This document shows, one piece after another, positions 4,777 to 34,306 of a DNA stretch of 64,000 nucleotides (the stretch's first letter is position 1; each line of letters begins with the position of its first letter). The position numbers were made by a program, and so were the translations under genes. Origin of the DNA: Nitrospirota bacterium (GTDB taxonomy: Bacteria > Nitrospirota > Thermodesulfovibrionia > Thermodesulfovibrionales > Dissulfurispiraceae); the NCBI GenBank assembly GCA_040752355.1, contig JBFMHE010000012.1:1-64000 (forward strand), read 5' to 3'. Below the pieces are notes generated by a model that saw nothing but the letters and a program-made list of their open reading frames with translations, did no database searches and was not told the DNA's origin.

Positions 4777-6816
4777 CTACCAGTTTCCGGTCACCGGCTG
4801 GTCGCCTGCCACACCGTATGTGTAACATGCGTCGACACCGCAGGCATCGAGAATGCCGTTTCCATTGAGGTCAAGAGTCCACGCGCCGTTTCTGAAGACA
4901 CCGATCCTTGTTCTGCCATTTCCGGTCCAGTCTCCGGTCACCGGGATGTCCCCGGCAGATCCATAGGAATAGCAGCCATCAATCGCGCATCCGTCAAAGA
5001 GACCGTTGCCGTTAATGTCAACTGTCCATGTGCCGCCTCTGAAGACGCCGATCTTCGTCTTGCCGTTTCCGGTCCAGTCTCCGGCTACCGGAGTATCACC
5101 GATGCTGCCAAAAGTGTAGATGGTATCAGTACCCGGATTCCATACGCCGTTGCCATTATCAAGGAACCATTGGCCGTTTCTAAAGGTTCCGATCTTTGTC
5201 TTGGTATCACCGTTCCAGTCACCGGTCACCGGGATATCGGTCGAGAGACCAAAGCTGTAGGTAAAATCAATACCAGGGTTCCATGCGCCGTTGCCGTTGG
5301 CGTCCAAGAACCATCTGCCGCCGCGGAAGGCGCCAATTTTTACCTTGCCATCACCGTTCCAGTCACCGGATAACGCTTTATCGCCTGCGAGACCAAAATT
5401 ATAGACAAGGTCTATTCCCGCATCAAAAATGCCATTGGTATTCACGTCGAGGTTCCATATACCGCTGCGGAAAATACCGACCGACTGAGGAGAGCCCAAA
5501 AGGGCAACCTGAGCAGTGGCAGATCCTCCTGCCGATGATGTCACAATAACTGAAGCCGGAGGTGCCTGAATTCCCGTTAACACCAAAGTGTCATTGGTAA
5601 GAGTTCCGAGCGGGAGACCAGCGCCAGGAGCATCAGCGGTAAGCGATGGGGGCACAGCCTTGTCACTCGACGATGCCATAATGGTAAGCGTTGCTTTTGT
5701 AATATTGTATTCCGCTTTACTAATAGTGACTGAATCAGTAAGAGCACTACTAATGGAGGAAGCAGAGCTACCCGCGGCATTTGCAGTCAACGTCACAAAG
5801 GGTGGTAGTACTGTCGCATCAGCCAGATTTATAGTGGCAAAGAAGTTCCCTATTGCGCTGCCCGCAAGAGCGACTTCGCCTGGCGGCATATTGGCGCCGC
5901 CGCTCACGGTGACGGTCGCCGCCGGTGCGGAATCGGCGAAAATATCAATCTGCCCCTGACCGGCTGCAGTCCTGCTGTAGGTCGTCCTTGTCGGGGTCAG
6001 GGGGGTGGGAAGGACGCCGTCGAATAATCTGCCGACGAGCTCGAAATTCACAGTTTCGATAGAGTTTATGCCGGGGCCCCCGATGTTCGGGCCCTCAACG
6101 CGGAATACATTGCCGAAAGGACCTCCCGTCACAGGCCCGAGTGCGGCAGGCTGGGCGATATAAAGCTTGCCGCTTCCCGGATAGAGATCGAAGAACGGAA
6201 GCGGCGCGCCTCCCGGCGTTAACGAAGGTCTGAGATAGGGCCCGATGCTGCTGCCGAGCGCACCGGTGAAGACGCCGGGAACGGTGATGCCGATATCCTG
6301 GGTCATATTGATCGCCCTGACCCCCGGCTGTACATTGTTAAACGGAAAAATACCATAAGGGGTCGTCACTACATAGTTTCCGCCTGGAGCGGGAATATCG
6401 ACCCGGATGCGGACGCGGCCGAACGATACCTGGTCGCCCTGGATCGGTTCCTCGAAGGCGAAGGCCGCTTCAAGGGCCATGACCAGATCGGCGCTGCCGC
6501 CGCCCGGCAGATCGATGATCGTGCCGCCCGCCCACCAGAACGCTTCTCCGGGGAAGTTGGTAGGGAAGACGATGGGGGCGAGGGGGCTCGGCACATCCGC
6601 TGGCAGAATGAGACATGCGCCGTCGGCCAGTTCCTGCACATTCGGTATGCACAATTCGAGCGCCAGCCCGTTGCTGTCCTGGTAGTATTTCGGGAACCCG
6701 TTGTTCGGATCGATCGGTCCCATTACATTCAGAGCAGCGTGGGCCGCTGACGATACTATGAGCGATAGGACAAAAGCTGCTGTAACGATGAGCATGATAC
6801 GTTCTCTTTGCTTCAT
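4777..6816 (-). CDS. Secreted protein with five C-terminal calcium-loop repeats
   Basis: The 679-residue product has a signal peptide (residues 8-28, ending AHA) and a beta-rich N-terminal region of about 440 residues that I do not recognise. The last ~230 residues are five tandem repeats of about 45 residues. Each has the pattern IGxFRxGxWxLDxNGNGxxDxGxD, then an aromatic-Gly strand, then GDxPVTGDWxGDGKT. The DxNxNG and DWNGDG loops look like calcium-binding loops of the FG-GAP/VCBS kind. The last two repeats carry extra cysteine pairs (DGCAIDGC, DACGVDAC), probably disulfides. The same repeat domain ends the upstream gene. Extracellular adhesion or matrix binding is inferred. Confidence 0.7.
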   Translation of the reverse strand: MKQRERIMLIVTAAFVLSLIVSSAAHAALNVMGPIDPNNGFPKYYQDSNGLALELCIPNVQELADGACLILPADVPSPLAPIVFPTNFPGEAFWWAGGTIIDLPGGGSADLVMALEAAFAFEEPIQGDQVSFGRVRIRVDIPAPGGNYVVTTPYGIFPFNNVQPGVRAINMTQDIGITVPGVFTGALGSSIGPYLRPSLTPGGAPLPFFDLYPGSGKLYIAQPAALGPVTGGPFGNVFRVEGPNIGGPGINSIETVNFELVGRLFDGVLPTPLTPTRTTYSRTAAGQGQIDIFADSAPAATVTVSGGANMPPGEVALAGSAIGNFFATINLADATVLPPFVTLTANAAGSSASSISSALTDSVTISKAEYNITKATLTIMASSSDKAVPPSLTADAPGAGLPLGTLTNDTLVLTGIQAPPASVIVTSSAGGSATAQVALLGSPQSVGIFRSGIWNLDVNTNGIFDAGIDLVYNFGLAGDKALSGDWNGDGKVKIGAFRGGRWFLDANGNGAWNPGIDFTYSFGLSTDIPVTGDWNGDTKTKIGTFRNGQWFLDNGNGVWNPGTDTIYTFGSIGDTPVAGDWTGNGKTKIGVFRGGTWTVDINGNGLFDGCAIDGCYSYGSAGDIPVTGDWTGNGRTRIGVFRNGAWTLDLNGNGILDACGVDACYTYGVAGDQPVTGNW

Positions 6817-6908: not shown

Positions 6909-8420
6909 CTACCATATGCCGATAACCGGTTTATCTCCTGCTGCACCGAAGGTGAAACAGCCGTCAATAGTGCAATCCTCAAGAATCCTATTACCGTTCA
7001 GATCCAGTATCCATGTTCCACTTCTAAAAACTCCTATTTCTGTTATACCATCACCGTTCCAGTCGCCTGCTACAGGGATATCGGTAGCAAGACCGAAGGT
7101 AAAGGCAGAGTCGATGCCGGCATCCCATCTACCGTTGCCGTTGTCAAGGAACCATGTGTTTCCGCGGACTACACCGATCTTTGTTGTCCCCGAGCCGTTC
7201 CAGTCGCCTGTTATCGGTTTATCCCCCGTTAGACCAAAGGCAAATGTAGAATCCACTCCCTGATCCCATCTCCTGTTGCCATTTGCATCCAGATACCACT
7301 TGCCGCCACGGAACACACCGATATCAGTAATGCCGTCGTTATTCCAATCTCCGGTCACCGGGATGTCGCCAGCGATGCCGAAGGCTATGGTAGCATCTAC
7401 CCCTTGATTCCATATGCCGTTGCCGTTAGTGTCGAGGAACCACTTGCCGCTTCTGAATGTTCCTATCCTCGAAATGGCCGATCCATCCCAACTTCCTGCT
7501 ACAGGAACATCGCTTGCGAGGCCAAATCTGTTGGAAGTGAAGTCAGTGCCAGGGTCGAAGACACCGTTTCCATTAGAGTCGAGTCTCCATATGGCATTGC
7601 CGAACACCCCGATCTTCGCTGCCGGGAAATTCTCCGAGAACTCCACCGGCGCAAGGAAGACGGCAGAATCGCCGTCCATGTCGAACCCGTCGTCGCTCGT
7701 GTCGGCGATCACGATCTTGACGTGGTGGACCGCTCCTGGGTCGATGGGAACCGTCGCTGATATCACCTTGCTGAACCCGTTATATTGCGTGCCAAAAGGG
7801 GTAGGCGTCCCGAAATCGAGGGGATCGTTGTTGATGAAGCCGGCGGGGGTCGCGGTCCCGTTGAGGGTATTGATGGTTACGGGGTTCGAGGTACCCGGGA
7901 CCAGGGCGTAGTTCACGCCGTCGACGTACAATGCGACAATATCGTTGAACTCCTCGCCGACGAAGGTGTTGTACTCTTCCGAGGCGAAGACGAAGCTGAA
8001 GGTGGCGATGTTCTTGTTCGAGGGCGGGATGAAATCGAACTCGAGCACGCTCGCGTCAGCCGTCATATACGGCGCAACGAGGCCGTCGAGATCGGTATCG
8101 CCATCCAAAAAGTTTGCGCTGCCGTATGCCCCGTCGTTGGGACCGACGGCATTGAAAATGGACCCCGTGGTCAGCAGGATACCTTCATCGATGCCGATGC
8201 CGTCCACGAGGCCGTTCCTGAATATACCCGCCGCTTCAGGCTCCCCGGTGTAGACGATATTGCTGACCTGAGGCCCCCCCGAGCCCATCAGCTTGTCCGT
8301 AAGCTCCTGCTCGGTGATCTCGGTCAGATCCTGCAGGTCTTCGAACCCGATGGCGAACGCCGGAATGCCGCTTGCGATGATGAATACTGAAATGAGCGCC
8401 ATCTTCAGTACCGTTCTCAT
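6909..8420 (-). CDS. Choice-of-anchor-L domain protein with C-terminal repeats
   Basis: This 503-residue protein has a signal peptide (residues 1-23, ending PAFA). A domain at about residues 25-265 contains the hallmark SFVFASEEYNTFVG and DIVALYVDG strands of the choice-of-anchor L family of exported proteins. The remaining ~230 residues are five repeats homologous to those of the next gene (IGVFRGGKWYLDANGN, then GDWNGDG). Its ATG follows GGGGAGG at good spacing. It heads a two-gene unit driven by the sigma-54 site at 8496-8511, and an 8-base-pair imperfect hairpin lies after its stop at 6874-6900. I saw no PEP-CTERM or LPXTG sorting signal, so surface retention must use another route, or the protein is released. 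Confidence 0.78.
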   Translation of the reverse strand: MRTVLKMALISVFIIASGIPAFAIGFEDLQDLTEITEQELTDKLMGSGGPQVSNIVYTGEPEAAGIFRNGLVDGIGIDEGILLTTGSIFNAVGPNDGAYGSANFLDGDTDLDGLVAPYMTADASVLEFDFIPPSNKNIATFSFVFASEEYNTFVGEEFNDIVALYVDGVNYALVPGTSNPVTINTLNGTATPAGFINNDPLDFGTPTPFGTQYNGFSKVISATVPIDPGAVHHVKIVIADTSDDGFDMDGDSAVFLAPVEFSENFPAAKIGVFGNAIWRLDSNGNGVFDPGTDFTSNRFGLASDVPVAGSWDGSAISRIGTFRSGKWFLDTNGNGIWNQGVDATIAFGIAGDIPVTGDWNNDGITDIGVFRGGKWYLDANGNRRWDQGVDSTFAFGLTGDKPITGDWNGSGTTKIGVVRGNTWFLDNGNGRWDAGIDSAFTFGLATDIPVAGDWNGDGITEIGVFRSGTWILDLNGNRILEDCTIDGCFTFGAAGDKPVIGIW

Positions 8421-8495: not shown

Positions 8496-8511
8496 AGCAA
8501 GATGCAGGCCA
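8496..8511 (-). promoter_or_regulatory. Sigma-54 (-24/-12) promoter
   Basis: Read on the minus strand the sequence is TGGCCTGCATCTTGCT, matching the -24 TGG and -12 TTGCW elements with correct spacing. Transcription would start near 8484, about 64 bases before the ATG of the choice-of-anchor-L gene. It shares an upstream architecture with the sites at 18767-18782 and 24649-24664. Confidence 0.75.
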
Positions 8512-8691: not shown

Positions 8692-10326
8692 TTAGCGGGG
8701 AGTGATCCAGTCGCCGGCGGGTCTGAAGGTCTTATCGACGAGATCGACGGTGATGATATGGGCGCCCAGTGCGCCGGTGCGCCTGTTCGGGGCATAGGAT
8801 ATGCGCGGCGTCACGCCGGTCTCGAAGCGGTAGAGCCCCTCGAGCGCCTTCACCAGCTTTTCTCTCGTCAGCTCCCTGCCGCCCGACTTCAGCCCCTCTA
8901 CCAGGATGCGGGCAGCGGCATACGCGGAGATCTGAGCCGCCTTATGGTCCGGAGAAAGGCGATACTTCTCGGCAAGCAGGGCGAATTCGACGGCCCCCGG
9001 TCCATGGAGATCGGAGGGCGCTGTCGGCGAGGAGAGGACTATCTTCTCATGGAACGAGAGCGGCATGGCGAAAAGCTCTTTTGCGCTCTGTGCCCCTGCA
9101 AGAAGCACGAGCGGCTGCCACTGGACGCGGTCCGCTTCGGCCAGCACGGACTTCAACGCCTCCGGCGACCCGAAAAAGAGCAGGGAGTCGACGCCGGCCT
9201 GCTGCAGCTCCCGGACTGTCCGGGCAGCATCGGGCCGACCGCCTCCGAACCCGATGACGCTGACAGCGGCAAGCCCATGCTTCCGCAGCTGCTCCCGCGC
9301 CGCCTCGATAATGCCGTGCCTGGTCCCGGTGCTGTCGTACACAACGGCCATTGCCGGCCTCTTCTGCCGCTGCGTTGCGTAATCGACCAGCGCGCGCGCC
9401 TGGTCGCCCAATCCTGAGAAGACATAAAAGGTGGCGTTGTTCAGCGTATGCGGGTCCTGCGGGAAAAGCGTAAGAGGACCGATGAACGGCACGCCCTCGG
9501 CTTCGACGAGCGCCGCGACCTCGCCTTCCGCACCGGCAAAGAGGCCAGCAGCGAGTGCGAAGACGTCGCCCTCCTCTATCATGGTACGCGCTTTTACGAC
9601 CGGCGCAGTCGCGCCGGCGCCGTATTCGGCTGCCACGAGCTCGAGCCGCCGGTTATACAGCCCTCCCTGCTGATTGATCTCCATGAAATACGCCTCGACC
9701 GCGGCCCTCATGGCAGCGCCGGCGCCGGTGAGCTGACCGTGCGAAGGCAGGAGCGTACCGATCCGTATGCCCGAAGGGGAGACGCCCGGATCGGAGAGGC
9801 TGCCGAGCCGCTTCATATACGCGACGAGGTCCGCCATGTCCTGTTTCGAGAGCAGGTAGAGCGGCATCGAGGGGTCGAGTCGGTTTCCCGCGGGATCGAT
9901 GCCCTCTGCGATAGACCTCGCGAGGGTCTCCCCGGTGTAGGGGGGATGCGTCCTGCCGCTCTCGTGCCGCACGCCGTAGGGCTTCGTCATATGCTCCCAG
10001 GTGACGTTGGTGGGGATGACCCCGCTCTCGGGCCTGCCGAGCCCGTCCATGCCGTGGCAGCCTGCGCAGGGCATGGCAGAGCCGGGCGCTTCCATCAGAT
10101 CCTTCCCGATATAGGCCCTGATCTTTTCGCCGGAGGGGCTCTCGGTCCTTATATAAATATGCCTGCCCCGCTTCTCCTGCGGGGTCAGGGAGCCCGCCGC
10201 CGAGAGAGAGGCGGAACAGAGCAGCCCGGCGCATAAAAAGACAGCGGCAATGAGGCAGAGGGGGCGGGGAATGGTATGCCCCGCCCCCTCTCTCCGCTCA
10301 TTTTGATAGATGCTCTTATTCATCAT
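8692..10326 (-). CDS. Cytochrome c / periplasmic binding protein fusion (first copy)
   Basis: The 544-residue exported protein has a signal peptide (hydrophobic at residues 24-43) and then a small cytochrome-c-like domain with one CAGCH heme site at residues 87-91 and downstream methionines (DPSMPLYLL) as possible axial ligands. From about residue 175 to the end it matches the Leu/Ile/Val-type periplasmic binding protein fold (IRIGTLLPSHGQLTGAGAAMRAA at its start, with GGLYNRRLELV following). No permease or ATPase lies nearby, so it is unlikely to serve an ordinary ABC importer. It is the last gene of the giant-oxidase operon and overlaps the upstream SCO gene by 4 bases. A paralogue, also directly after a SCO gene, is at 19862-21541. 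A redox-coupled ligand sensor or electron carrier is inferred. Confidence 0.8.
   Translation of the reverse strand: MMNKSIYQNERREGAGHTIPRPLCLIAAVFLCAGLLCSASLSAAGSLTPQEKRGRHIYIRTESPSGEKIRAYIGKDLMEAPGSAMPCAGCHGMDGLGRPESGVIPTNVTWEHMTKPYGVRHESGRTHPPYTGETLARSIAEGIDPAGNRLDPSMPLYLLSKQDMADLVAYMKRLGSLSDPGVSPSGIRIGTLLPSHGQLTGAGAAMRAAVEAYFMEINQQGGLYNRRLELVAAEYGAGATAPVVKARTMIEEGDVFALAAGLFAGAEGEVAALVEAEGVPFIGPLTLFPQDPHTLNNATFYVFSGLGDQARALVDYATQRQKRPAMAVVYDSTGTRHGIIEAAREQLRKHGLAAVSVIGFGGGRPDAARTVRELQQAGVDSLLFFGSPEALKSVLAEADRVQWQPLVLLAGAQSAKELFAMPLSFHEKIVLSSPTAPSDLHGPGAVEFALLAEKYRLSPDHKAAQISAYAAARILVEGLKSGGRELTREKLVKALEGLYRFETGVTPRISYAPNRRTGALGAHIITVDLVDKTFRPAGDWITPR
10257..10291 (-). repeat. Perfect 13-bp hairpin inside a coding region
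   Basis: Arms 10257-10269 and 10279-10291 are perfectly complementary and GC-rich, beginning AGAG and ending CTCT. The hairpin falls at about codons 12-24 of the cytochrome-binding-protein gene, between the start codon and the signal peptide. There is no U-tract. It resembles the hairpin at 13542-13581 in the same operon. Confidence 0.7.
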
Positions 10327-10943
10327 TTCTCATCCGCCAGGGAGAGGAGCGTCTCGGCGATCTTCGATGCCGGAGCGCTCGGCAGCATCTTGATCCAGTG
10401 CCCTGTCTTCAGATTGCCCATGAGCATGACCGTCAGGTGCGACCCGGGCTCCGGATGGATGTTCCCGAGCTTGCGGTTGATGGCAGCGATGTCCTCTTTC
10501 TCTCCCGTGACGAAGAGCCATCCCTGCTGCGGCTCGAAGACCTTGGCGTAATATCTGATCGCTTCGGGCGTATCTCTGCCGGGGTCCACGTTCAGCGACA
10601 GGAGGAGGATATCCTTTCCGAGCCGCTCGCCGAGCATCTTCTGCACCTCGGTAAGCCGCGACAGCGCAGGCGGACAGACCGTGGTACAGCGGATATAGAA
10701 GAAGTGAATCAGTACGGTCCTGTCTTTCAAAAGATCGCTGTAGAACCGCACCTCGTTGCCTTCATGCGTGACGACCGGAAGGTCGGTGAAGTAGCGGCGG
10801 TTCGCGTCCTCACGGGAGATGTGCAAGCCCGCTGCACCGGCTGCGGTTGCGCCGCCGCCTTCTTCCCCGGCGAGACTCCTGCACGGCGCCAGGCTGACCG
10901 CCGCAAACAAAAGGATCGCCAGCAGCGCAGACCGCCGGATCAT
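10323..10943 (-). CDS. SCO1/SenC copper chaperone (operon, second SCO)
   Basis: The 206-residue product has a signal peptide and a thioredoxin-like SCO fold. The copper-binding CTTVCP motif has cysteines at residues 86 and 90, and the conserved distal histidine sits in a GSHLTVMLMG segment. SCO proteins deliver copper to CuA-type or other copper enzymes and can reduce their cysteines. The ATG at 10943 is chosen because it overlaps the upstream SCO stop as ATGA; the longer upstream extension has no signal-peptide character. It also overlaps the downstream cytochrome-binding-protein gene by 4 bases. Copper loading of the giant oxidase in this operon is the likely job. Confidence 0.88.
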   Translation of the reverse strand: MIRRSALLAILLFAAVSLAPCRSLAGEEGGGATAAGAAGLHISREDANRRYFTDLPVVTHEGNEVRFYSDLLKDRTVLIHFFYIRCTTVCPPALSRLTEVQKMLGERLGKDILLLSLNVDPGRDTPEAIRYYAKVFEPQQGWLFVTGEKEDIAAINRKLGNIHPEPGSHLTVMLMGNLKTGHWIKMLPSAPASKIAETLLSLADEK

Positions 10944-11584
10944 GATCTTCCTTTCTGCTGAAGCGCTGCGCTCTTCCGTTCCTCGATGAGGGCCGCGATA
11001 TGCTTCATGAGCTGCCTGGGCCCGGCAAAGCCGTAAAAACGCTTCCATCCGGTTTTATTATCGCCGATGATCGTCATGACCGGGTGCTCGTCGATCTTGA
11101 GCGAATAGGCGTCGAGCCCGAGCAGCACTCTGCTCAGGTTGTCCCGGTCTCCGGTAAGGAAGACCCATCCCGGCTTCGCCTTCTGTTTGCGGGCGAACTC
11201 CTTCAGCCGCAGCGGCGTGTCGGTCCGCGGATCGACGCTCAGGGAGACGAGCACCACCTCCCTGCCGAGGTACTCACCGAGCAGCTCCTGGAGCTCGACG
11301 AAGATATAGATGAGGGCCGGGCAGACGGTGGTGCAGGCCGTATAGAAGGTGTTGATCACCACGATGCGGTCGCCTATCACCTCGCTCCTGAACTTCACCT
11401 TCCTGCCGTCCTGGTCGAGGAGCTCCAGATCGAGGAGCTCGACCTTCACCAGCTCGGGGTCTTTCACGCGGGACGGCGTTTTGGCAGAGGCATCGCCGAA
11501 CACCATAAGAGCGATGATCAGTGCAGCAATATAGCCGGGCGCCTTTCGGCACTTCATCATTACGCGGGTCCGCATCGCCTTCAT
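10940..11584 (-). CDS. SCO1/SenC copper chaperone (operon, first SCO)
   Basis: This 214-residue SCO-family protein has an N-terminal signal or anchor segment (about residues 17-33), the CTTVCP copper motif at residues 84-89, a SLSVDPRTDTP segment typical of the fold, and the distal histidine in a DEHPVMTI segment. It starts a few bases past the beta-propeller gene, with AAAGGAAAG upstream, and its stop overlaps the next SCO gene. Two adjacent SCO genes that differ substantially in sequence suggest division of labour, for example one for copper transfer and one for thiol reduction, but that is inference. Confidence 0.88.
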   Translation of the reverse strand: MKAMRTRVMMKCRKAPGYIAALIIALMVFGDASAKTPSRVKDPELVKVELLDLELLDQDGRKVKFRSEVIGDRIVVINTFYTACTTVCPALIYIFVELQELLGEYLGREVVLVSLSVDPRTDTPLRLKEFARKQKAKPGWVFLTGDRDNLSRVLLGLDAYSLKIDEHPVMTIIGDNKTGWKRFYGFAGPRQLMKHIAALIEERKSAALQQKGRS

Positions 11585-11588
11585 GTGA

Positions 11589-13604
11589 TCACTTTCCTTT
11601 CTCCCCGTGCGCCTCCCCCGGAGCGCGGTCCCTTTCTACGGCATGGAACGTCAGCGACGGCGCCTGATTGGAGCGTATATTCAGAGAAGCGCTCTCGAGG
11701 AAGACGAAATAGAGGCCCCGGCGCGGCGCGGTCACGGACAGTTCGTAGACGCCGTTGTCACGAGGTTCCGCAAGGGTGCGGCGCTGCCACGTGCCGGGAG
11801 AGGTAAAGGAGAGGGCGCTGATGTCCCGTATTCCCGATTTCGGCTGACCTGTCGTGCTGTCGGTGACTCTGAAGCGTATCGTTACGGGCTCTCCTGCGGT
11901 GACCGCCCTCTCTATTTTCGCGAATTCGATACGGACCGGCGACTCCTCCCTGCGGGCGAGGGCCGGATTCTCCTTCACCTCCACGGTAAAGCAGTGGTGC
12001 AGGCGGGGAGCGTCGAGCAGGAAGGCGACATCGTAGACACCCTTCTGCGGCGCCCTGAAAACAGTGGTATAGGAGCCGGGCCCCGTCTCCCTGAGGCTCC
12101 GGTCGACCACCAGTACTGCACGCGGCACATTGCCGTAGTTCTGGAACGTGCCCATGGGGGAGATCATCCCTTCCATGTAGTAGTAGATCGTCTTATCGAC
12201 CGGGTTGGCGACGAGCATGACATCGCCCTCGGGCGTTCTGGTCATGGTGTCGGCAGGACCGAGATCCGGATACCGCTCAGGCGGCGTCTGCCCCCCGCTG
12301 AAGGTGAGCACCGGGAGGGTGTCGCCCTTTCCCAGGGCGTTCAGCTGGACCATGCTGATATTTTCGGACCCGAGGCGGCGGATGAAGGCGAAGGCGCCGG
12401 TGAAGACGATCCGGTCGGGCCGGTCGTCGACGGTGATGCTGTGGAGCATCGCGTTGGTCGAAGCATCGATGATATGCACGGCATTCTCGCTGGTGTTGGC
12501 GACGAACCCCCAGCGGCCGTCGAGCGAGAAGCGGACGGTCCTCAAGCCGGGCTTTGCCGCAAGCGCGGTCGCCGCGAGGGTCCTCGGATCGAAGACAGTG
12601 ATCTTCCCGTCACCCTCGCTCGCTGCATAGAACGATTTCGAGAGCTTCGAAAAAGCGAGCGACGAGGGACGGCTGCCTGCTGCAATATCGCCGATCTTGC
12701 GGAGCGTGAAGGTCTCGATCACCGAGACCGTGCCGCTTTCGCTGTTGGATACCGCGGCATAGCGGCTGTCGTCGCTGAAGGCGATCTCGTGCCTCCCTGC
12801 GCCGGTAGCAATATGCGCCGCTGCCGTAAGGGCGCCGACATCGATCACCGTCACCCCGCTTTCGGCATTGTCGCCGGCAGCGGTGTCGTTGCCGACCCAG
12901 AGATACTTCTCGTCCGGCTGAAGGGCTATGCGCACGGGATTCTTTCCTGCATCGATCTCGGCGACTGCTTTCCAGAGCGCCGTATCGACGACAGCGACCG
13001 AACCTGCTTTCGGCATGGTGACGAAGAGCCTCTTGCCGTCGCGGCTCAGGGCCCAGTCCTCGCCGGGGCTTTTCAGGATGACGGTGGTGATCAGCTTGCT
13101 CGTGTAGTAGCCGAGAAGCGGGTCGATCACCGAGATGGTCGGCTTCTCGTTGAGGGCTAGTATATAGTACGTGTTGAGATCGACCTCCGGCCTGAAAGCG
13201 AGACTCCCCCTGAGAAAGGACCTCACCTTCTCTTCGCAGGGCACGACTTCGGGCTCTCCCTTGACAGGGCCGATGCGCGACTTGCGCCGGTCGATCCAGA
13301 CAGCGGGACGGAGCCCCTGCAGCGGTGCGCCGGTGCCGCTGCCGGTGATCGTGAAGGAGACAGCGGCATCCTCACCCTCGCGGACTCCCTCCGCCGCACC
13401 TTTCTCGGCCGCGATCGGCGTGACCCGCATCTCGACGGCAACGCCCTCTTTGACCAGTTTCTGCTCTCCGTCTGCATAGGCCGACCGGGGCATAGCGAAG
13501 GGCAGCAGGGCGTATAGCAGCACGAGGACGAGAGCGATTCCGACAGAGCGCGCAGCCCGTGGCCGGGCTGCGCGCTCTGTCTTGATATGGATACGACCGT
13601 CCAT
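11589..13604 (-). CDS. Exported YVTN-type beta-propeller protein
   Basis: The 671-residue protein has a signal peptide (residues 22-43, ending AYA). About residues 140-470 form repeated blades of the kind ISVIDPLLG, SVAVVDTALWKAV, GTVSVIETFTLRKI and NAVHIIDASTNAM, as in YVTN and cytochrome-cd1-like propellers. Two beta-sandwich-like segments flank it (about residues 45-130 and 555-650), and a HHCF motif near residue 535 could bind metal. The ATG directly follows the oxidase stop codon (TAGATG), showing translational coupling. A scaffold or partner for the multicopper oxidase in the periplasm is likely. A 17-bp perfect hairpin lies in its first codons. Confidence 0.75.
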   Translation of the reverse strand: MDGRIHIKTERAARPRAARSVGIALVLVLLYALLPFAMPRSAYADGEQKLVKEGVAVEMRVTPIAAEKGAAEGVREGEDAAVSFTITGSGTGAPLQGLRPAVWIDRRKSRIGPVKGEPEVVPCEEKVRSFLRGSLAFRPEVDLNTYYILALNEKPTISVIDPLLGYYTSKLITTVILKSPGEDWALSRDGKRLFVTMPKAGSVAVVDTALWKAVAEIDAGKNPVRIALQPDEKYLWVGNDTAAGDNAESGVTVIDVGALTAAAHIATGAGRHEIAFSDDSRYAAVSNSESGTVSVIETFTLRKIGDIAAGSRPSSLAFSKLSKSFYAASEGDGKITVFDPRTLAATALAAKPGLRTVRFSLDGRWGFVANTSENAVHIIDASTNAMLHSITVDDRPDRIVFTGAFAFIRRLGSENISMVQLNALGKGDTLPVLTFSGGQTPPERYPDLGPADTMTRTPEGDVMLVANPVDKTIYYYMEGMISPMGTFQNYGNVPRAVLVVDRSLRETGPGSYTTVFRAPQKGVYDVAFLLDAPRLHHCFTVEVKENPALARREESPVRIEFAKIERAVTAGEPVTIRFRVTDSTTGQPKSGIRDISALSFTSPGTWQRRTLAEPRDNGVYELSVTAPRRGLYFVFLESASLNIRSNQAPSLTFHAVERDRAPGEAHGEKGK
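13542..13581 (-). repeat. Perfect 17-bp hairpin inside a coding region
   Basis: Arms 13542-13558 and 13565-13581 pair perfectly with a 6-base loop (GTGGCC on the plus strand). They encode about codons 8-21 of the beta-propeller gene, between its start and its signal-peptide core. The structure is very stable in RNA and has no U-tract, so it may affect mRNA stability or coupling between the oxidase gene and the genes after it. Confidence 0.75.
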
Positions 13605-16600
13605 CTATTCCGGCGTCGGGGTCGCTGCCGGGGGCGTCACGCGCAGGATGCCCCAGAGCCCGCCGCTGAACTGGAACGACGCCATATCGCGGTAGAGGTA
13701 GTCGCCCGGCACTTTGAAGGCGCCGCCCGCGCCGTCGTGGGGCAGCACGACGAAGTGGTTCGCCGGGCCTATCCCCTCCTGCGATCCGGTCATCTCGGAG
13801 TGGTTGTCGTGATTGTGACCGATCTGGGTCGAGTTGAGCGAATGGGGGTGGCGGTCCCAGATATGGCCGTGCAGCTGGAAGACGCTGTTGCGCGGATGCC
13901 CGCCCGGGTGGAGCAGGTAGAGCCTCACCGGCATACCCGCCTCTGCTTCGAAGACCGGGGTCTGCGGGTCTGCGCCGCCGGTGATCGTATTCGAGAGGAC
14001 ATTGGTGAAGTCAATGGCGCGGGCCTCGCGCAGCGGCAGGTTGGGCGCAACGCCGAGCCGGAACCAGAGCGGCTCGGTCCGGTAGTTGAACGCCTTCTGC
14101 GCCGAATCCTCCGCGTCATCGTCGCCGCCGAAGTTTTCGATCGGGTTGCCGAAACCGTCCTTGAGATTGATGTCGTCCTGGAACATGAGGACGAACTCCC
14201 TGTGCGTCACGCCGTTGATCGACACCGTCGCCGAGGCGCGGGAGCCGGGGTCCTCGATCCAGGTCGCATTCTGGTGCTCGATGACCAGCGCTCCGACAGC
14301 GCCCTTGCCCGCCTGCTTGATCGGGTCTGCGGGCATCAGGTTGACGGGGCCGAACTCTATGGGCGTAGCCTTCAGCCTGTTCAGCGAATCGACCGCGAGG
14401 TCTCCCGCATACCAGCGGTAGACCACTGCCCTGCCCGGCGCAGCGGTCTGGACCTTCACCGCATTGAGCCCCGCGTTCGTCCCGTCATGCCGGGCGACGT
14501 CGAACGCAACGAGCTGCGGGTGGAGCCCGACGCTGTTCGACGGATGCACCTGGTTGGCGTTGAAGTCGTCCACGATCGGCGGCAGTATGGAGTAACCGTC
14601 CATATCGGGGAGCGCCTGGGGCAGCCTGTTCCGCAGGATGACCTGCAGGCACTCTCCTGCACGGGCCCTGAGGATGAGCGGCTCTACCGGCGCCCCTGCC
14701 TTGAGGGTGCCGTCGGCATTGAGATCGCTCGTGCGCACATAGAGGATCGCGGTCGGGTCGTGGAGCGGACCGGACCGGACCTCTGCCGGAGCCTCCGGAT
14801 GTTCGGGATCGAAGGCGGTCGTGAACTGGGTGTCACGCGAGTTGTAGGTCAGGGTGCCGCCCGGCAATGCATTCGCCGCGCTGACAGCGGTGACGTCCAA
14901 TGTCCTGAGCGGCGCCGCGATCGGGCAGACTCCCCTGAACTCCTTCAGGTTCGTGATCTTCGAAAGGAAGACGCCGTTGGCAGGAGCCGGGTTATTCGGC
15001 AAAGGCAGCAGGTCGTTCCGCCGGGAGCTGTAGGAGCGCAGGAAGCCCCATATACCGTTCCACTGCCCGTCCGACGAGGCGTCCATCTTGTAGAGATAGT
15101 CCCTGAAGGGACCGGCGAGCCCCTCCGTAGGCGTCATCGGGATCAGGAGCTCGAAGTGCTCGGAAATGCCGAGCATCTGCGCGTTGCGATACCCCGAGCC
15201 GGCGTCGAGGGGCTCGGAGAACCACTTGAGCCCGTGGAAGGTCATGGTGTGCCCCTCCTCGGTAGCACCCACCTGTACGCGTATCTGTATTTTATCGCCG
15301 TCGTACGTCCTCAGGAGCGGCGTGTAGGGGTCGCCGGCAGTGACGCCGAGGCGCGGCGGATAGAAGGCGGGCTGCACATTCAGCCCGGGGATCGCCCGCG
15401 CCACATCGGACCGGTAGACGAGCGAGAGGTCTCCCGCCCTGCCGAGGGCCTGCTTGCCCGCAGGGTTGGCGAGGTCGGCCAGCCCCGGATCGAGCACGCG
15501 GAGGGCTACGGGCTCGTTGCGGTAATTAACGGTGAACGTGCCCACGTCAGCCGCCGAGATCGCTTCAGGACAGGGCGGCGTGCTGACGCCGTCGGGGCAG
15601 ACATCGACGAGCTTCTTTACGAGCAGCGGCAGCGGCGCTTCCTCCTTTGCCGGAGGATTGATAACGCCTTCCGGATCGGGCACGGGAGAGGCGGCGGTAC
15701 CGCCGCTCCCCGCCTGGTAGGCGAGCTGGAAATCGGCGAACTGGAAGAGGAACTCGCGGTAACTGTCGGCGCTGTTGCGCGGCAGGATGTCGGCGCGCCA
15801 GCTCGTCGGTCCGCCGTCGTCGCGCGTGCCGTAGAACGTACCGGTCTCGGGATCGCGCCACCGCGACCCCGCAGGTTCGACCACGAGCGACGCATAGAGC
15901 CCTGCCTGCTGGTGCGTCGAGGGGCCGAAGTGGTCGTGGGTGAAGATCGTGCGGAGCGTCCTGTCCTGGCCGCGGTTGTTCAGGGTCGGGTCCTCGTACC
16001 AGCGCTGGACCGTCGTCTGCGCGCCGAGCGCGTCGACGCCCGGGACCGACCCGAAGAACGGATGCGGTTTCGCAGCGAGCGTTGTCTGTGCGGCGAGATC
16101 GTACAACCATAAGCCGCCGCGCTGGTTTATCGCATGGATGCGCTCCCGCACCTCCTGGGGGCTGAAGGTGCCGTCTTCGTAGTTGTAGCCGTTGCCCGAG
16201 CCGTCGGAGGAGGTGACGTCGAACTTGACCAGGTGGATGTGCTGCCCGATGATATCGGTCGGGGTCCTCACCTGGTAGTCGTCCAGCTCGTAGATGTTGG
16301 GAACGAGGTTGGTATGCAGAAAGGTCATGCAGTCGTTCGTGTTGGCCCTGAAGAAGAGCGGCTCCGGCGCTCTCGTACCGTTCAGTGTCGGCTCGACATC
16401 GCGCCACAGGGCGAGTATGCGCGACTGCGGGAAATGCCATCCCACTTTATTGAAGGTCATATCGAGCTGAATGGCGGCAGCCTTGTAGGTGCGCCTGTTG
16501 CCGGTTGCCGTGCCGAAATCGGTCAGGCAGGGGTCGGCAAAGGGCGCTCCCTGCGCCGGCGGACGGCCGTTCGTCTTGAACCCGCTCGTGCCCGTTGCCG

Positions 16601-18701
16601 GCGCGCCGTTCGGAAGGTAGCTGTTATGGAAGCGCTTCGCGTGGAAGTTCATCGCGAGCAGCTCCATCGGAGTCCCGCTCTCGGGTATCTGGATCGCGTC
16701 TGCCTCGTGGAGCACCTTGTCGAGGTTGAGCCGCATCTCGGCGACCGTGGTCGGGAATGTCGCCACGCCGCCGGTAATGATATGGCGCGGCAGACCTCCG
16801 TCGTGAACAGTGCCGTCCGCCTCTTTCGCGAAATCGAGCGGCGGATGGGGAGGCCGATGCCCGGCCAGGCCCGGGATATAGAAAGGATAGCCGGGGTTTC
16901 TGGTGGTGTCGTCGAAGACCACCTGGCCGGTGGTGTTATCGATATGAAGAGCGCCCGGCATCGGCGCCATGGCGCGGTGCGGAAGCGGCACCACCGCCGG
17001 GATCGGCGTCCCCGCCAGGATCTCCGCATCCGGCAGCGCACGCGCGCCGGGGAGCGGAGCGCCGGTTGCAGAATCGAGCTCGGTCCCCGCCTCGAAGACA
17101 TCATGCACCCGCCAGAGCTCCCACATGCCCTGCGCGAAATGGGGATAGAAATGGCAATGGAAGATCGAATCGCCCACGGTCTGGTTCCGGTTGCCGGAAC
17201 CGTTGTACGCGATGTCGTACGTGTAGCCCGAGCCGGGTCCGATCGCCTGGCTGTCGAGGTAGCTCGAGTCGTCGTCATCGGGGCTGAAGAGCCACTGATG
17301 GGCGTGGAGGTGGAATATATGGTGCTCTTTCGGCCCGGCATGGAGATTCCTGAACTTCACATGGTCGCCGATGTAGCTGTGGTGAACGTTCGAGGGGTCG
17401 TCGGGGTAGAAGGCGACGGTCGCCTTCGGCCCGGTGATGACCTGCCCTGTCCCGTCCGCAGCGTTTGCCGGGATATCGACCACCATCGCGGGGTCTCCCA
17501 CTGCCCAGGAGGTGAGGAAGAACTCCTCGAACTTGCATTCGGGGCAGTCCCACATCGGCCCGACATTCTTGCGATTGGCGAGCACCTCGGCGCCTGCGCC
17601 GGCAGTGCCGTAGTTGATCGCGAAACCGTCCCGCACGCCGTGGAGCGTATGGCTCAGTATCGGGTCGGTAAACTCGGGGAATGCCTGCTTCGCGAAGATC
17701 TCGTCATGGAAGATGACGGTGAACTCCCGGTACGGCTCGAGACGGCTCCGCGGCGTTGCATCGTCGGTACGGGCAGGCACGAGCACATCGTTGCGCGGAT
17801 AGGTCCCTGCAGGGAAGTTGCCCCTGTTCGGGCCGGTGATGATCGCGTTGATATCGGTATGGACAAGCGCATCGTTATGGAGCATCTTCAGGATGGGGAG
17901 CCCTGCCTTCCCTTCCGCCAGGTACGGCTCTTCGCCCGGATAGAGCGCGTCATAGTCGATGACCGGGTGTCCGTCGGGAGTCTTCCTGGGGGCGCCGTCC
18001 TGGTTTCTGAGGGTCGCGAGGTCGAGCTCCTCCCGCGTCGCCTGGCTGCGGTACCACTCGGCCCCGCGCTTCTGGACGTTCACCGCACCGAAGAGGCCGA
18101 ACGGCAGCGAGCCGCCGTTGCCCTCGCCTCCCACCGTCGATGCGGCGTTATAGAGGAGAAAGGTCCCTTCCCTCTCCGCACGGAGCGTATAGGTGGCGGT
18201 CCCGCCCGGCGCCACGAGACTGTTCGGATTGCTGCCCACATAGGAGCCGTCGTCGTTGATACTGTTCACCGGCTGCATGCCGAGCACATGGACCGATGCT
18301 GTCCTCGTCGCCGGCTGGTCGCCCCTCGGGTCGGGCAGCGCAGGCAGGGCAGGCGCCAGGAGATTCTGGAAATTGATCTGGAGGCAGTCTCCCTCATTCA
18401 TGCGCAGCACGATCGGCCTCGGCCTCTTGTCGGGCCGCAGCGAGACAGCGCCTGCGGTTGCGCTGCCCCCTGCAGTCAGGGGCACGCCGCTGGCGTCGAC
18501 CACGTCGCGCCTCAGGGCGAAGATCATCCCCGCAGGGTTTACCGCCCCCAGGCGGTTGTAGAAGAAGGGCTGGTCGAGCGCGACGACATCCGCGGTAATC
18601 GTCCGTTCGCAGACGCCCGCAGCCGTTGCTGCAGGAGCGCCCGCCAGGGCGATCGCCGTCGCCACGAGCAAAAGTGCCATACTACGTGTTGCGGTCTTCA
18701 T
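13605..18701 (-). CDS. Giant multicopper oxidase (MofA/MnxG-size class)
   Basis: This 1698-residue protein with a signal peptide (residues 5-28) contains several cupredoxin domains. Copper-ligand motifs include HLHAHQW (464-470), HCHFYPH...GM (515-526, a combined type 1/type 3 motif), HIH (821-823), HDHFGPSTH (922-930), HTMTFH (1151-1156) and QLHGHIW (about 1609-1615). Its size and multiple cupredoxin units resemble the bacterial manganese-oxidase candidates MofA and MnxG rather than three-domain laccases. I chose the ATG at 18701 (GGGGAGG upstream) because the sigma-54 promoter would start transcription near 18755, inside any longer version. It heads an operon with a propeller protein, two SCO chaperones and a cytochrome-binding-protein fusion. 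Substrate (Mn(II), Fe(II), Cu(I) or organic) is not determined by sequence. Confidence 0.88.
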   Translation of the reverse strand: MKTATRSMALLLVATAIALAGAPAATAAGVCERTITADVVALDQPFFYNRLGAVNPAGMIFALRRDVVDASGVPLTAGGSATAGAVSLRPDKRPRPIVLRMNEGDCLQINFQNLLAPALPALPDPRGDQPATRTASVHVLGMQPVNSINDDGSYVGSNPNSLVAPGGTATYTLRAEREGTFLLYNAASTVGGEGNGGSLPFGLFGAVNVQKRGAEWYRSQATREELDLATLRNQDGAPRKTPDGHPVIDYDALYPGEEPYLAEGKAGLPILKMLHNDALVHTDINAIITGPNRGNFPAGTYPRNDVLVPARTDDATPRSRLEPYREFTVIFHDEIFAKQAFPEFTDPILSHTLHGVRDGFAINYGTAGAGAEVLANRKNVGPMWDCPECKFEEFFLTSWAVGDPAMVVDIPANAADGTGQVITGPKATVAFYPDDPSNVHHSYIGDHVKFRNLHAGPKEHHIFHLHAHQWLFSPDDDDSSYLDSQAIGPGSGYTYDIAYNGSGNRNQTVGDSIFHCHFYPHFAQGMWELWRVHDVFEAGTELDSATGAPLPGARALPDAEILAGTPIPAVVPLPHRAMAPMPGALHIDNTTGQVVFDDTTRNPGYPFYIPGLAGHRPPHPPLDFAKEADGTVHDGGLPRHIITGGVATFPTTVAEMRLNLDKVLHEADAIQIPESGTPMELLAMNFHAKRFHNSYLPNGAPATGTSGFKTNGRPPAQGAPFADPCLTDFGTATGNRRTYKAAAIQLDMTFNKVGWHFPQSRILALWRDVEPTLNGTRAPEPLFFRANTNDCMTFLHTNLVPNIYELDDYQVRTPTDIIGQHIHLVKFDVTSSDGSGNGYNYEDGTFSPQEVRERIHAINQRGGLWLYDLAAQTTLAAKPHPFFGSVPGVDALGAQTTVQRWYEDPTLNNRGQDRTLRTIFTHDHFGPSTHQQAGLYASLVVEPAGSRWRDPETGTFYGTRDDGGPTSWRADILPRNSADSYREFLFQFADFQLAYQAGSGGTAASPVPDPEGVINPPAKEEAPLPLLVKKLVDVCPDGVSTPPCPEAISAADVGTFTVNYRNEPVALRVLDPGLADLANPAGKQALGRAGDLSLVYRSDVARAIPGLNVQPAFYPPRLGVTAGDPYTPLLRTYDGDKIQIRVQVGATEEGHTMTFHGLKWFSEPLDAGSGYRNAQMLGISEHFELLIPMTPTEGLAGPFRDYLYKMDASSDGQWNGIWGFLRSYSSRRNDLLPLPNNPAPANGVFLSKITNLKEFRGVCPIAAPLRTLDVTAVSAANALPGGTLTYNSRDTQFTTAFDPEHPEAPAEVRSGPLHDPTAILYVRTSDLNADGTLKAGAPVEPLILRARAGECLQVILRNRLPQALPDMDGYSILPPIVDDFNANQVHPSNSVGLHPQLVAFDVARHDGTNAGLNAVKVQTAAPGRAVVYRWYAGDLAVDSLNRLKATPIEFGPVNLMPADPIKQAGKGAVGALVIEHQNATWIEDPGSRASATVSINGVTHREFVLMFQDDINLKDGFGNPIENFGGDDDAEDSAQKAFNYRTEPLWFRLGVAPNLPLREARAIDFTNVLSNTITGGADPQTPVFEAEAGMPVRLYLLHPGGHPRNSVFQLHGHIWDRHPHSLNSTQIGHNHDNHSEMTGSQEGIGPANHFVVLPHDGAGGAFKVPGDYLYRDMASFQFSGGLWGILRVTPPAATPTPE

Positions 18702-18766
18702 GGTGCCTCCCCATTTATTGCATCTGACGTTATCCCGTAAAACATACATCCCGGCGAGCATGAGAG

Positions 18767-18782
18767 AGCAAAATCCGTTCCA
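18767..18782 (-). promoter_or_regulatory. Sigma-54 (-24/-12) promoter of the giant oxidase operon
   Basis: On the minus strand the box reads TGGAACGGATTTTGCT, an excellent -24/-12 match. The predicted start near 18755 leaves a leader of about 54 bases before the chosen ATG. It is flanked upstream by the ATTAA element and activator-type sites. Confidence 0.8.
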
Positions 18783-19221: not shown

Positions 19222-19253
19222 AAGTTCGGTCATCCGCTGCGAAAGAGGTGTGT

Positions 19254-19865
19254 ATGGTGAAGTTTGTGCTCGTACTGTTTTTGCTTGCGCTCCCGTTAAG
19301 GGACCAGTGCGGTGCAGCCGCCAGGGGCGCTGCCGATGAAGCACTCCGGCAAGAGGCCAAAGGAGCCAAAGGGAAATATCTCCGCACGATAGAGGATTAC
19401 CGGGTCCCGAATGTGACGCTCCTGAACCAGGACGGAAAAAAGATAAAGCTCCGCTCCTTTCTCGATCAGGGCAAGCCGGTGATCATCGATTTCATCTTCA
19501 CGACCTGCACGACCATATGCCCCGTCCTCTCGGCGGGGTTCTCCCATCTCCAGGACCGGCTCGGCGACGGGGCGAAGTCGGTGCAGCTCGTCTCGATATC
19601 AATCGACCCTGCGTACGACAGGCCCGAACAGATGAAGGCGTACCTCGCACGCTACAATGCGGGAGCGGGATGGGACTTCCTCACCGGGAGCAGGGAGGAC
19701 ATCGCCCTCGTGCTCAAGGCCTTCGATGCAGCGGTCGCCGACAAGATGTCGCACCTCCCCCTCTATATTCTTCGCGGCCCGGAGTCGGACGAATGGGTCC
19801 GCATCAAGGGTTTGATCAGCGGCGCCGAGCTCATGCGCGAGCTCGGGAAGGTGCAGAAGAAATGA
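19254..19865 (+). CDS. SCO1/SenC copper chaperone (rightward operon)
   Basis: The 203-residue product has an N-terminal hydrophobic signal (residues 2-15), the copper-binding CTTICP motif with cysteines at 85 and 89, the SISIDPAYDRPEQ segment of the SCO fold, and a distal histidine in MSHLPLYIL. The ATG at 19254 has AGAGGTG close upstream; a GTG at 19248 is an alternative. It overlaps the next gene as ATGA. It is only moderately similar to the two SCO genes of the leftward operon, so this SCO plus cytochrome-binding-protein pair is probably an old duplication of that module. Confidence 0.87.
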   Translation: MVKFVLVLFLLALPLRDQCGAAARGAADEALRQEAKGAKGKYLRTIEDYRVPNVTLLNQDGKKIKLRSFLDQGKPVIIDFIFTTCTTICPVLSAGFSHLQDRLGDGAKSVQLVSISIDPAYDRPEQMKAYLARYNAGAGWDFLTGSREDIALVLKAFDAAVADKMSHLPLYILRGPESDEWVRIKGLISGAELMRELGKVQKK

Positions 19866-21541
19866 GAAATCAGCCATTCTCCCGGGCAGTGCCGCCGCTC
19901 GTTCTCTTCCTCTTCGTCATGTTTTTCTTGTCCGCCCCTGCGATAGCGGATAAGGATGCAACGATAGCCGGGCATTCGCCGGAGGAAGCGCTCCGCCTCG
20001 GCGAGGCGATGTACGCGAAGGGGCTGCTCCCTTCCGGCAAGCCGATGAGCGCCGTTCTCCAGGGCGATCTCGTGGTGAAAGGCACGATGGTCACCTGCGC
20101 CAACTGCCATATGCGGAGCGGCCTCGGCTCGGTCGAGGGGGGAGTCCTCACGCTCCCGACCAACGGAGCGCTGCTCTACGCTCCTCTCAGGAGCAGCCGC
20201 GACCTCCCGGGAATCGGCATGGGGCGGGGAGAGCTGAAGTATCCCAGGCCTGCGTATACCGATGCGTCTCTTGCAAAGGCTATCCGCTCAGGGGTGGATG
20301 CAGCCGGACGGATAATGGAGGAGACGATGCCGCGCTATCTCCTCGACGACCGGGAGATGGAGATCCTGGTCTTCTATCTGAAGAACCTCTCGTCGAAGCC
20401 CTCGCCCGGCGCATCGGGCGACTCGATACGGCTCGCGACGATCGTAACCGAGGGCGTAAGCGATAACGAGCGGAGGGCAATGGTCGATCCCCTTGCGGCA
20501 TATATACGGCAGGAGTGGAATGCGAACCTGACGGTGCTCTCGATGACCACGAGAGAGAAGACCTACCGCCCCGTCTCGCTCGATATATGGGAGTTGAAAG
20601 GTCCTCCCGAGACATGGAGGGAACAGCTCGAGGCCTTCTACAAGAGGGAGCCGGTCTTTGCTCTCATAGGAGGGATAGCAGCTTCCCCCTGGCACCCTGT
20701 CCACGGCTTTTGCGAGGAGAACAGGATACCGTGCATTCTCCCCATAACCGATCTGCCGGTGGTCTCGCAGGGCGACTGGTACACGCTCTACTTCTCGAAG
20801 GGATACCACCAGGAGGGCGAGGCTGCTGCGAACTACCTCGCCCACGTCCTCGATCTGCCGCAGGACAAGGAGGTCGTCCAGGTGTTCAGGAATAAGGACG
20901 AGGGAAAGGCCCTGGCAGAGGGATTTGCCGGCGCATGGAAGAGGCAGGGCAGGACCGGTCCCAGAGATCGTATGCTTTCCCCGGGGGAAAGAGCGGACAG
21001 GCCCTTCTGGAAAGAGCTTGCGGCGCAGCACCGGAACGCGGTCTTCCTCCTCTGGCTCGGCCCCGGAGACCTGAGCGGCGTCGAAGCGCTGGCCGACACC
21101 GCAGACCGTCCCTCGATCGTCTTCGCCTCATCGACGATGCTCGGCAACGACTACGCGGCGCTCCCCGACGCTGTCCGGGATTTCGCTCTCTTGACCTATC
21201 CCAACCGCCTCCCCGAAGAGAGCGCCGGCGCTCTGTTCTCCGTGGAGCAGTGGCTGGGGGCGAAAAAGATACCGGTGACCGGCATCGCGACCTCGTCGAA
21301 GGTCTTTCTCCTTACGCGCGCCCTGTCGAGGGTGATGATCGCCATGAAGGGACACTTCTACCGCGACTATTTCCTCGATCTCTTCGATATGCTCGAGGAC
21401 CAGACCACGGCGGTCGCTGCCTATCCCGTGCTCAGCTTCGGCCCCGGGCAGCGCTACGCAGCGAAAGGCTGCTATGTCGTCAAGCTCACCAGGGGAGAGC
21501 AGCCGAAGATCATAAAGCAGAGCGACTGGATCATATACTAA
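19862..21541 (+). CDS. Cytochrome c / periplasmic binding protein fusion (second copy)
   Basis: This 559-residue exported protein has a signal peptide (residues 11-29, ending AIA) and a cytochrome-c-like domain with a CANCH heme site at residues 79-83, followed by tyrosine- and methionine-containing segments (METMPRYLLDD region). From about residue 180 it is a two-lobed periplasmic-binding-protein-like domain (IRLATIVTEGVSDNERR onwards, with VFALIGGIAASPW in the middle). The first copy at 8692-10326 has the same domain order and also follows a SCO gene. I chose the ATG overlapping the SCO stop; longer versions upstream run through the SCO gene in another frame. The stop codon touches the end of repeat copy 2. 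Confidence 0.8.
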   Translation: MRNQPFSRAVPPLVLFLFVMFFLSAPAIADKDATIAGHSPEEALRLGEAMYAKGLLPSGKPMSAVLQGDLVVKGTMVTCANCHMRSGLGSVEGGVLTLPTNGALLYAPLRSSRDLPGIGMGRGELKYPRPAYTDASLAKAIRSGVDAAGRIMEETMPRYLLDDREMEILVFYLKNLSSKPSPGASGDSIRLATIVTEGVSDNERRAMVDPLAAYIRQEWNANLTVLSMTTREKTYRPVSLDIWELKGPPETWREQLEAFYKREPVFALIGGIAASPWHPVHGFCEENRIPCILPITDLPVVSQGDWYTLYFSKGYHQEGEAAANYLAHVLDLPQDKEVVQVFRNKDEGKALAEGFAGAWKRQGRTGPRDRMLSPGERADRPFWKELAAQHRNAVFLLWLGPGDLSGVEALADTADRPSIVFASSTMLGNDYAALPDAVRDFALLTYPNRLPEESAGALFSVEQWLGAKKIPVTGIATSSKVFLLTRALSRVMIAMKGHFYRDYFLDLFDMLEDQTTAVAAYPVLSFGPGQRYAAKGCYVVKLTRGEQPKIIKQSDWIIY

Positions 21542-23116: not shown

Positions 23117-23142
23117 GGTCTTGCTCCTTTCTCCTTATGGGC

Positions 23143-24552: not shown

Positions 24553-24648
24553 GACCTTCTCTCCTTTCTCCGTCTGCTTCTCTTCCCCGGCCTGACCGTT
24601 CATCCGTTCCTCACAGGCGCTCCTCACAGGATGTCTGCCGGAAAGAAT

Positions 24649-24664
24649 TGCAAGCTTCATTCCA
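24649..24664 (-). promoter_or_regulatory. Sigma-54 (-24/-12) promoter of the oxidase pair
   Basis: On the minus strand the box reads TGGAATGAAGCTTGCA with correct spacing. The predicted start is near 24637, about 85 bases before the Tat-oxidase ATG. It is the third promoter with this architecture, and it lies in the divergent region next to the activator gene at 24986. Confidence 0.78.
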
Positions 24665-24666
24665 GA

Positions 24667-24733
24667 ATTAACTAATTTTAATGAACTGTCAGGCCCTGCC
24701 ACCGGTGGCAGCAAGGAGAACCTTTTCTGTCAC
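24667..24733 (-). promoter_or_regulatory. ATTAA element and perfect CTGCCAC palindrome
   Basis: ATTAACTAATTTTAAT lies at 24667-24682. A perfect 16-base palindrome CTGCCACCGGTGGCAG is at 24696-24711, with further CTGTCA half-sites at 24686-24691 and 24727-24733. This is the best-formed copy of the proposed activator site. The remaining bases to the activator gene at 24986 show no other clear signal. Confidence 0.7.
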
Positions 24734-24985
24734 AATTGACATGATATGCGCTGCATACCGTCAGCAGGTAATTTTCACCATGCCAAAAGTGAACGGGCCA
24801 TTTTAGGCGAAGGGGCGCACGATGCGCCATTATGATGCAGTTCACCCCCGCTCGTGCGGACGAGGGCGTCCGTTGTAACACTGATCGTCCATCCTGTATA
24901 CTTCAAAGACGAGCAGAGCCGGACCTGTTCTTCCGGCCGTCGTATTCATCCCAAGCCCAAGCCCAAGAACGGGAGAGTGAGCTTT

Positions 24986-27969: not shown

Positions 27970-27985
27970 TGCAATACTGATGCCA
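27970..27985 (-). promoter_or_regulatory. Sigma-54 promoter of the Gln-box kinase gene
   Basis: On the minus strand TGGCATCAGTATTGCA fits the -24/-12 consensus, with a start near 27958 and a leader of about 30 bases. It lacks the ATTAA element and CTGCCAC sites seen at the three oxidase-region promoters, so it may answer to another activator. Confidence 0.7.
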
Positions 27986-32732: not shown

Positions 32733-32889
32733 GGAGTTTTGGAATATTCTAACGGGCAGCTCGTGCCCTCACCCGTCTCCCCCGCGATTAAAAACACTTT
32801 ATTATATAGAATCTCTCCCCTCAAAAGCCAAAGATTTTTATGGTGCGAGCGTTTGACAGAACGGCGCGAGAAGAGTCGTGGCGAGAAGC

Positions 32890-34275: not shown

Positions 34276-34306
34276 GCTCCTCCGAATGCGCGGCTGAGAT
34301 GCACTC

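Follow-up and report, generated by a model that had tools for sequence, protein, structure and literature searches.

The closest described counterpart of the locus analyzed here is the mnxG operon of Pseudomonas putida GB-1, which comprises mnxG, a YVTN beta-propeller gene, two SCO1/SenC genes, a gene for an ABC substrate-binding protein with a cytochrome c domain, and surA (PMC11409713, Table 4). The identical gene order is listed for two other Pseudomonas, DSV-1 and MS-1 (PMC11409713), and the same operon has been described and drawn for Pseudomonas sp. OF001 (PMC8218464). Regulation in P. putida involves the sigma54-dependent MnxR together with MnxS1 and MnxS2 (PMC11409713). The mof operons of Leptothrix discophora (mofABC) and Rubrivivax A210 likewise pair a giant multicopper oxidase (MCO) with a MofC-like protein and in some cases a copper chaperone (PMC5566968, PMC8218464); SCO genes and MofC-like proteins, which combine cytochrome c and periplasmic-binding domains, are found beside mofA and ompB (PMC5566968). 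One such cluster, that of Geobacter sulfurreducens OmpB, a MofA homolog with MofC-like and SCO neighbors, is linked to Fe(III) oxide reduction (PMC5566968); we liken it to our locus by description. The Mnx complex of Bacillus sp. PL-12 includes the MnxG of structure 9bxa, with MnxE and MnxF encoded directly upstream.

The stretch of DNA that we analyzed, hereafter the window, spans 64,000 nucleotides of a Nitrospirota genome (assembly GCA_040752355.1, contig JBFMHE010000012.1, positions 1 to 64,000). From 18701 down to 8692, its minus strand carries five genes in overlapping or near-touching frames:

13605 to 18701, minus strand: giant multicopper oxidase of the MnxG family, 1698 aa (NF041487, 9bxa, invariant ligands, Foldseek)
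11589 to 13604, minus strand: YVTN-type beta-propeller, 671 aa, TAGATG-coupled to the oxidase (TIGR02276 and related propeller families; surface-layer protein 1l0q, E=9.7e-20)
10940 to 11584, minus strand: SCO family copper chaperone 1 with CTTVC, 214 aa (PF02630, E=1.1e-15)
10323 to 10943, minus strand: SCO family copper chaperone 2 with CTTVC, about 206 aa (PF02630, E=4.4e-18)
8692 to 10326, minus strand: MofC-like fusion of cytochrome c and Peripla_BP_6, 544 aa (PF13458, E=2.5e-40; PF00034, E=1.3e-6)

The oxidase gene starts with an ATG at 18701, preceded by a GGGGAGG ribosome-binding site, and stops at 13605. An alternative ATG at 18761, which would give 1718 aa, was rejected because transcription, as predicted from a sigma54-type site, would begin downstream of it, and the presence of GGGGAGG before 18701 also favors the shorter frame. 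The oxidase/propeller junction reads GGAATAGATGGAC (TAGATG), the second SCO gene probably starts at 10943 in an ATGA overlap with the first (206 aa, versus 241 aa for the maximal open reading frame [ORF]), and the start of the fusion gene sits inside the stop of the second SCO gene, AAATGATGAAT. The Peripla_BP_6 domain of the fusion protein scores 139.6 bits, and its single CxxCH motif occupies C87 to H91. The 1698-residue oxidase coupled by TAGATG to a propeller gene, and the two SCO proteins and cytochrome c/periplasmic-binding fusion in overlapping frames, are thus as the original prediction had described them.

The oxidase is, judged from its sequence, an MnxG-family protein. It matches the NCBIfam MnxG model NF041487 with 1671 bits (1671.1; E=0), far below the cutoff of 3100 set for this Pseudomonas MnxG equivalog, a cutoff that none of the 296 genomes of the phylum passes. 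In a phmmer search, the sole solved relative found was Bacillus MnxG (9bxa; E=1.6e-103), which is homologous over most of its length and has the same permuted copper-motif order, with HxxHxH and HCH ahead of both HxH motifs; the Bacillus protein has 1227 aa, whereas the window oxidase has 1698 aa and belongs to a propeller/SCO/cytochrome operon. An AlphaFold2 model of residues 400 to 1000 (601 residues; pTM, 0.86; mean pLDDT, 79), built from an alignment from which three rows derived from plasmid records had been left out, again gave 9bxa as the top Foldseek match (E=7.6e-25; TM, 0.53). Its pLDDT is low around the HCH loop, which makes the model unsuited to judging copper-site geometry.

Four canonical copper motifs are present, namely, HxxHxH at 461 to 466, HCHxxxHxxxxM at 515 to 526, and HxH at 821 to 823 and 922 to 924. 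We take the assignment of residues to type 1 (T1), type 2, and type 3 copper from the general multicopper-oxidase motif pattern, which predicts H461, C516, H521, and M526 as T1 ligands. The twelve type 1/2/3 ligand positions are kept in 102 or 103 of the 103 aligned sequences, the sole exception (L076) being gapped, and H521, counted along the alignment, pairs with residue 340 of 9bxa, an alanine in this entry, whose title is Mnx H340A. Other conserved His and Cys residues are H332, C386/C389, H441, H454, H468, H533, H687, and H1151. The earlier count of at least six copper-ligand clusters was therefore too high, since the four canonical motifs cover the expected T1 and trinuclear sites; its comparison in size class with manganese-oxidase candidates was apt, in that the protein does belong with these giant MCOs. 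As for the refuting conditions named in the original prediction, the ligands align with the known sites, and the nearest families comprise Mn oxidases instead of functionally unrelated enzymes.

The first five genes of the GB-1 operon and those of the window agree in kind and order, and both oxidases belong to the MnxG family. GB-1's sixth gene, surA, has no counterpart downstream, where the window instead carries a choice-of-anchor L gene followed by a gene of a family without a name. Unlike GB-1, the window also has a divergent pair of SCO and cytochrome c fusion genes, and its host is a dsrAB-bearing Nitrospirota with two copies of mnxG. No MofB peptidyl-prolyl isomerase, as encoded in mof operons, was found among the Pfam-scanned window neighbors. 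The interval from 18761 to the start of the divergent pair, where MnxE and MnxF would be sought, contains no minus-strand ORF of at least 100 aa.

The distribution of the operon was assessed by a homolog scan of one genome per species (84,980 species), which yielded 521 stretches encoding oxidase relatives; 80 loci were kept, and 63 of these had enough downstream DNA for genes to be counted. A propeller gene lies downstream of the oxidase in 54 of the 63 loci, propeller, SCO, and fusion genes occur in 39, and all five genes occur in 29, from Acidobacteriota, Pseudomonadota, Myxococcota, Bacteroidota, and Planctomycetota. By homology and gene order, then, this five-gene set is a copy of the known Pseudomonas mnxG manganese-oxidase operon, which is widespread in bacteria. 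The original prediction had held that the accessory set differs from that of known manganese oxidases, suggesting an undescribed oxidase system; the set instead matches that of GB-1 gene for gene (PMC11409713), and the five-gene order in the Pseudomonas papers (PMC11409713, PMC8218464), together with the 29 complete loci, leaves the undescribed-system reading without support. As to the copper loading and electron acceptor proposed there, it is still reasonable to suppose that the SCO proteins load copper and that a cytochrome c is the partner of the oxidase. Recognizing a standard mnxG operon removes a false claim of novelty and maps the reach of the operon across five phyla; the only surprising part of the locus is its host setting.

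Given the gene content, the gene order, the family membership of the oxidase, and the conservation of its ligands, the locus as a whole is best explained as an mnxG-type manganese-oxidase operon that oxidizes metal by the mechanism proposed here, a reading in which we are fairly confident. By homology, the exported oxidase would oxidize Mn(II), and possibly Fe(II), at the T1 copper, with O2 reduced at the trinuclear center. The two SCO proteins, through their CxxxC copper/thiol motifs, would load or redox-protect copper, and the propeller is probably a structural partner or an assembly platform. The MofC-like fusion may move electrons to or from the oxidase or aid its maturation. Homology does not settle the substrate or the direction of the reaction, since in Geobacter it is Fe(III) reduction to which MofA/OmpB relatives have been linked (PMC5566968).

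Expression of the operon is probably sigma54 dependent, from a site just upstream of the oxidase gene and via one of the nearby sigma54 activators. The relevant features are as follows:

18767 to 18782, minus strand: candidate sigma54 promoter, TGGAACGGATTTTGCT, with one mismatch to TGGCACRNNNNTTGCW
24854 to 26320, plus strand: PAS-sigma54 activator, candidate regulator (PF00158, E=1.7e-52)
26359 to 27927, minus strand: PAS histidine kinase (PF02518, PAS)

Apart from the site at 18767 to 18782, none in the 64 kb comes within one mismatch of the consensus; 10 shuffles gave 0 to 2 such sites anywhere. Sites with two mismatches lie at 8496 to 8511, immediately upstream from the gene for a choice-of-anchor L protein, at 27970 to 27985, upstream of the histidine kinase gene, and close to where the ORF of 23143 to 24714 starts. 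Upstream of the homologs, sites with at most two mismatches are enriched (15 of 102, versus 3.25 in shuffled sequences, with a maximum of 7). Such a site is missing upstream of the two closest Nitrospirota relatives (L006 and L013; best, 4 to 5 mismatches), and the host's second mnxG copy has one only at three mismatches, so that this regulatory element does not hold generally. Sigma54 activators are encoded near mnxG in all three genomes of the order that match MnxG strongly, i.e., the host (G000), G053, and G276. A parallel between the regulation of this operon and MnxR/MnxS1/MnxS2 of P. putida is plausible, as is sigma54-linked control of both operons. Further along the minus strand, 29427 to 35973 encodes a MASE3/PAS histidine kinase, a sigma54 response regulator, and a histidine kinase, with a DsbC-like thioredoxin gene adjoining.

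The genes flanking the operon include the following:

19248 to 19865, plus strand: third SCO protein, with CTTIC, divergent (PF02630, E=5.3e-22)
19862 to 21541, plus strand: second cytochrome c/Peripla_BP_6 fusion, 559 aa, CxxCH at 79, divergent (PF13458, E=2.8e-9; PF00034, E=3.8e-4)
6909 to 8420, minus strand: secreted choice-of-anchor L protein carrying NGNG repeats, encoded downstream of the operon and on its strand (NF038133, E=8.3e-56)
4777 to 6816, minus strand: secreted protein, 679 aa, of a family recurring beside mnxG

The divergent pair, which the original prediction passed over, is of the same kinds as the last two genes of the operon. The protein encoded at 4777 to 6816 has no Pfam or NCBIfam match; its family shares the motif AVGPxxPxxGFPxWYQDxNGLxLELC, and for its predicted all-beta fold Foldseek returned only weak, mostly Ig/FN3-like matches (TM of at most 0.22 over the query). 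A family member directly follows the propeller gene in the host's second copy (L004), and others occur near mnxG in L013, L021, L029, L031, L039, L043, L044, and L050. Within the phylum, the family occurs in 7 of 296 genomes, including G000, G053, and G276, in G053 on another contig than mnxG. This recurrence is suggestive of a tie to mnxG, and the family is a concrete candidate for a component still missing from the mnxG system.

Another genome, G289, contains the family after a tandem pair of small MCO genes resembling the window's minus-strand ORFs at 21830 to 24714. The latter, of 428 and 523 aa, both carry multicopper-oxidase motifs, the downstream ORF having HWHG and HCH and the upstream ORF having HMHANH and HDH as well as a TAT-like signal. 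The pair recurs twice in G289 (L143 and L148) with 50 to 58% identity, followed by the secreted family; given this recurrence, a frameshifted single gene was considered but rejected, and the pair resembles an MCO whose parts are encoded by two genes.

An Rfam search gave no 16S hit in the host genome, and its taxonomy is drawn from G276, a genome of the same order whose oxidase locus is identical over 4629 bases to a public contig of a 'Nitrospirae bacterium'. Matches to dsrA and dsrB were found in the host and in almost every relative of its order that was searched. Neither the heme-copper oxidase COX1 nor cytochrome bd subunit I (CydA) was found in searches of this genome, a draft that may still miss genes at an estimated completeness of 100% and contamination of 0.38%; three genomes of the same family do carry COX1 or bd subunit I. 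Because neither was detected in the host, the supply of O2 for the oxidase is in question. Absence of a respiratory oxidase is not general among carriers, since a Desulfobacterales metagenome-assembled genome (MAG) whose oxidase is sister to that of the window (SH-aLRT, 100) has COX1. The host encodes a second oxidase, 60% identical and with its own propeller, on a 161-kb contig (C6). In the tree, this copy and those of G053 and G276 fall elsewhere than the window oxidase, and the two host copies are therefore not a recent duplication; horizontal transfer of the oxidase is likely, with paralogy a conceivable alternative. A divergent gene (L004, 9234 to 10505, minus strand), lying upstream of the second copy of mnxG at a distance of about 1.5 kb, encodes an eight-CxxCH cytochrome (PF13447, Multi-haem_cyto).

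This setting bears on what the oxidase does. It could be a general O2-scavenging or copper- or iron-detoxifying MCO that protects an anaerobe, with Mn oxidation incidental; the anaerobe-type genes on the same contig, such as those for aldehyde:ferredoxin oxidoreductase and RACo, the nearest MCO in a Desulfobacterales MAG, and the two copies in one genome are compatible with such protection. Canonical detoxifying MCOs (CueO and CopA), however, are three-domain proteins of about 500 to 600 aa. In Pseudomonas, Mn oxidation is the activity tied to MnxG-type enzymes encoded in such an operon (PMC11409713, PMC8218464). We consider this explanation unlikely as a rival, and it overlaps the main one rather than excluding it. 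Quite unlikely, in our view, is a role like that of OmpB, required in Geobacter for Fe(III) oxide reduction (PMC5566968), in which the oxidase, at the cell surface, would help the cell to reduce insoluble Fe(III)/Mn(IV) oxides or to attach to them, and the cytochrome c fusion and multiheme cytochromes would carry electrons. The dsrAB host in which no respiratory oxidase was detected and the eight-CxxCH cytochrome near the second copy would fit this role, but the oxidase retains all of the ligands for O2 reduction, scores with MnxG, and shares the MnxG operon order. That the operon is foreign DNA brought in by assembly or binning is highly improbable: the oxidase was found in only 2 of the 60 relatives searched, the host included, and its nearest sequence belongs to another phylum, but the contig's valyl-tRNA synthetase is 77% identical to those of same-family genomes, the second copy lies on a separate contig, estimated contamination is low, and two other genomes of the order have the oxidase.

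For the mnxG-type manganese-oxidase operon that we favor, the likeliest use in this host, with dsrAB and no respiratory oxidase detected, would be to react metal with O2 where oxic and anoxic zones meet, and not to conserve energy. We speculate, as a rather doubtful extension, that anaerobic dsrAB lineages without a respiratory oxidase might have kept mnxG operons (two copies here) for a purpose that differs from aerobic Mn oxidation, such as removing O2 in a way coupled to metal cycling or carrying out metal chemistry outside the cell as OmpB does; the secreted family of 4777 to 6816 would then be a new structural component. With two divergent copies of the operon in a sulfur-metabolizing Nitrospirota in which no respiratory oxidase was detected, the purpose of an O2-dependent metal oxidase there becomes a testable question. 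Many Nitrospirota genomes also encode other giant ORFs of about 1600 aa (e.g., L115 to L123, families f27 and f30), which match the MnxG model only over profile positions 457 to 522 and may represent a different giant MCO-like family.
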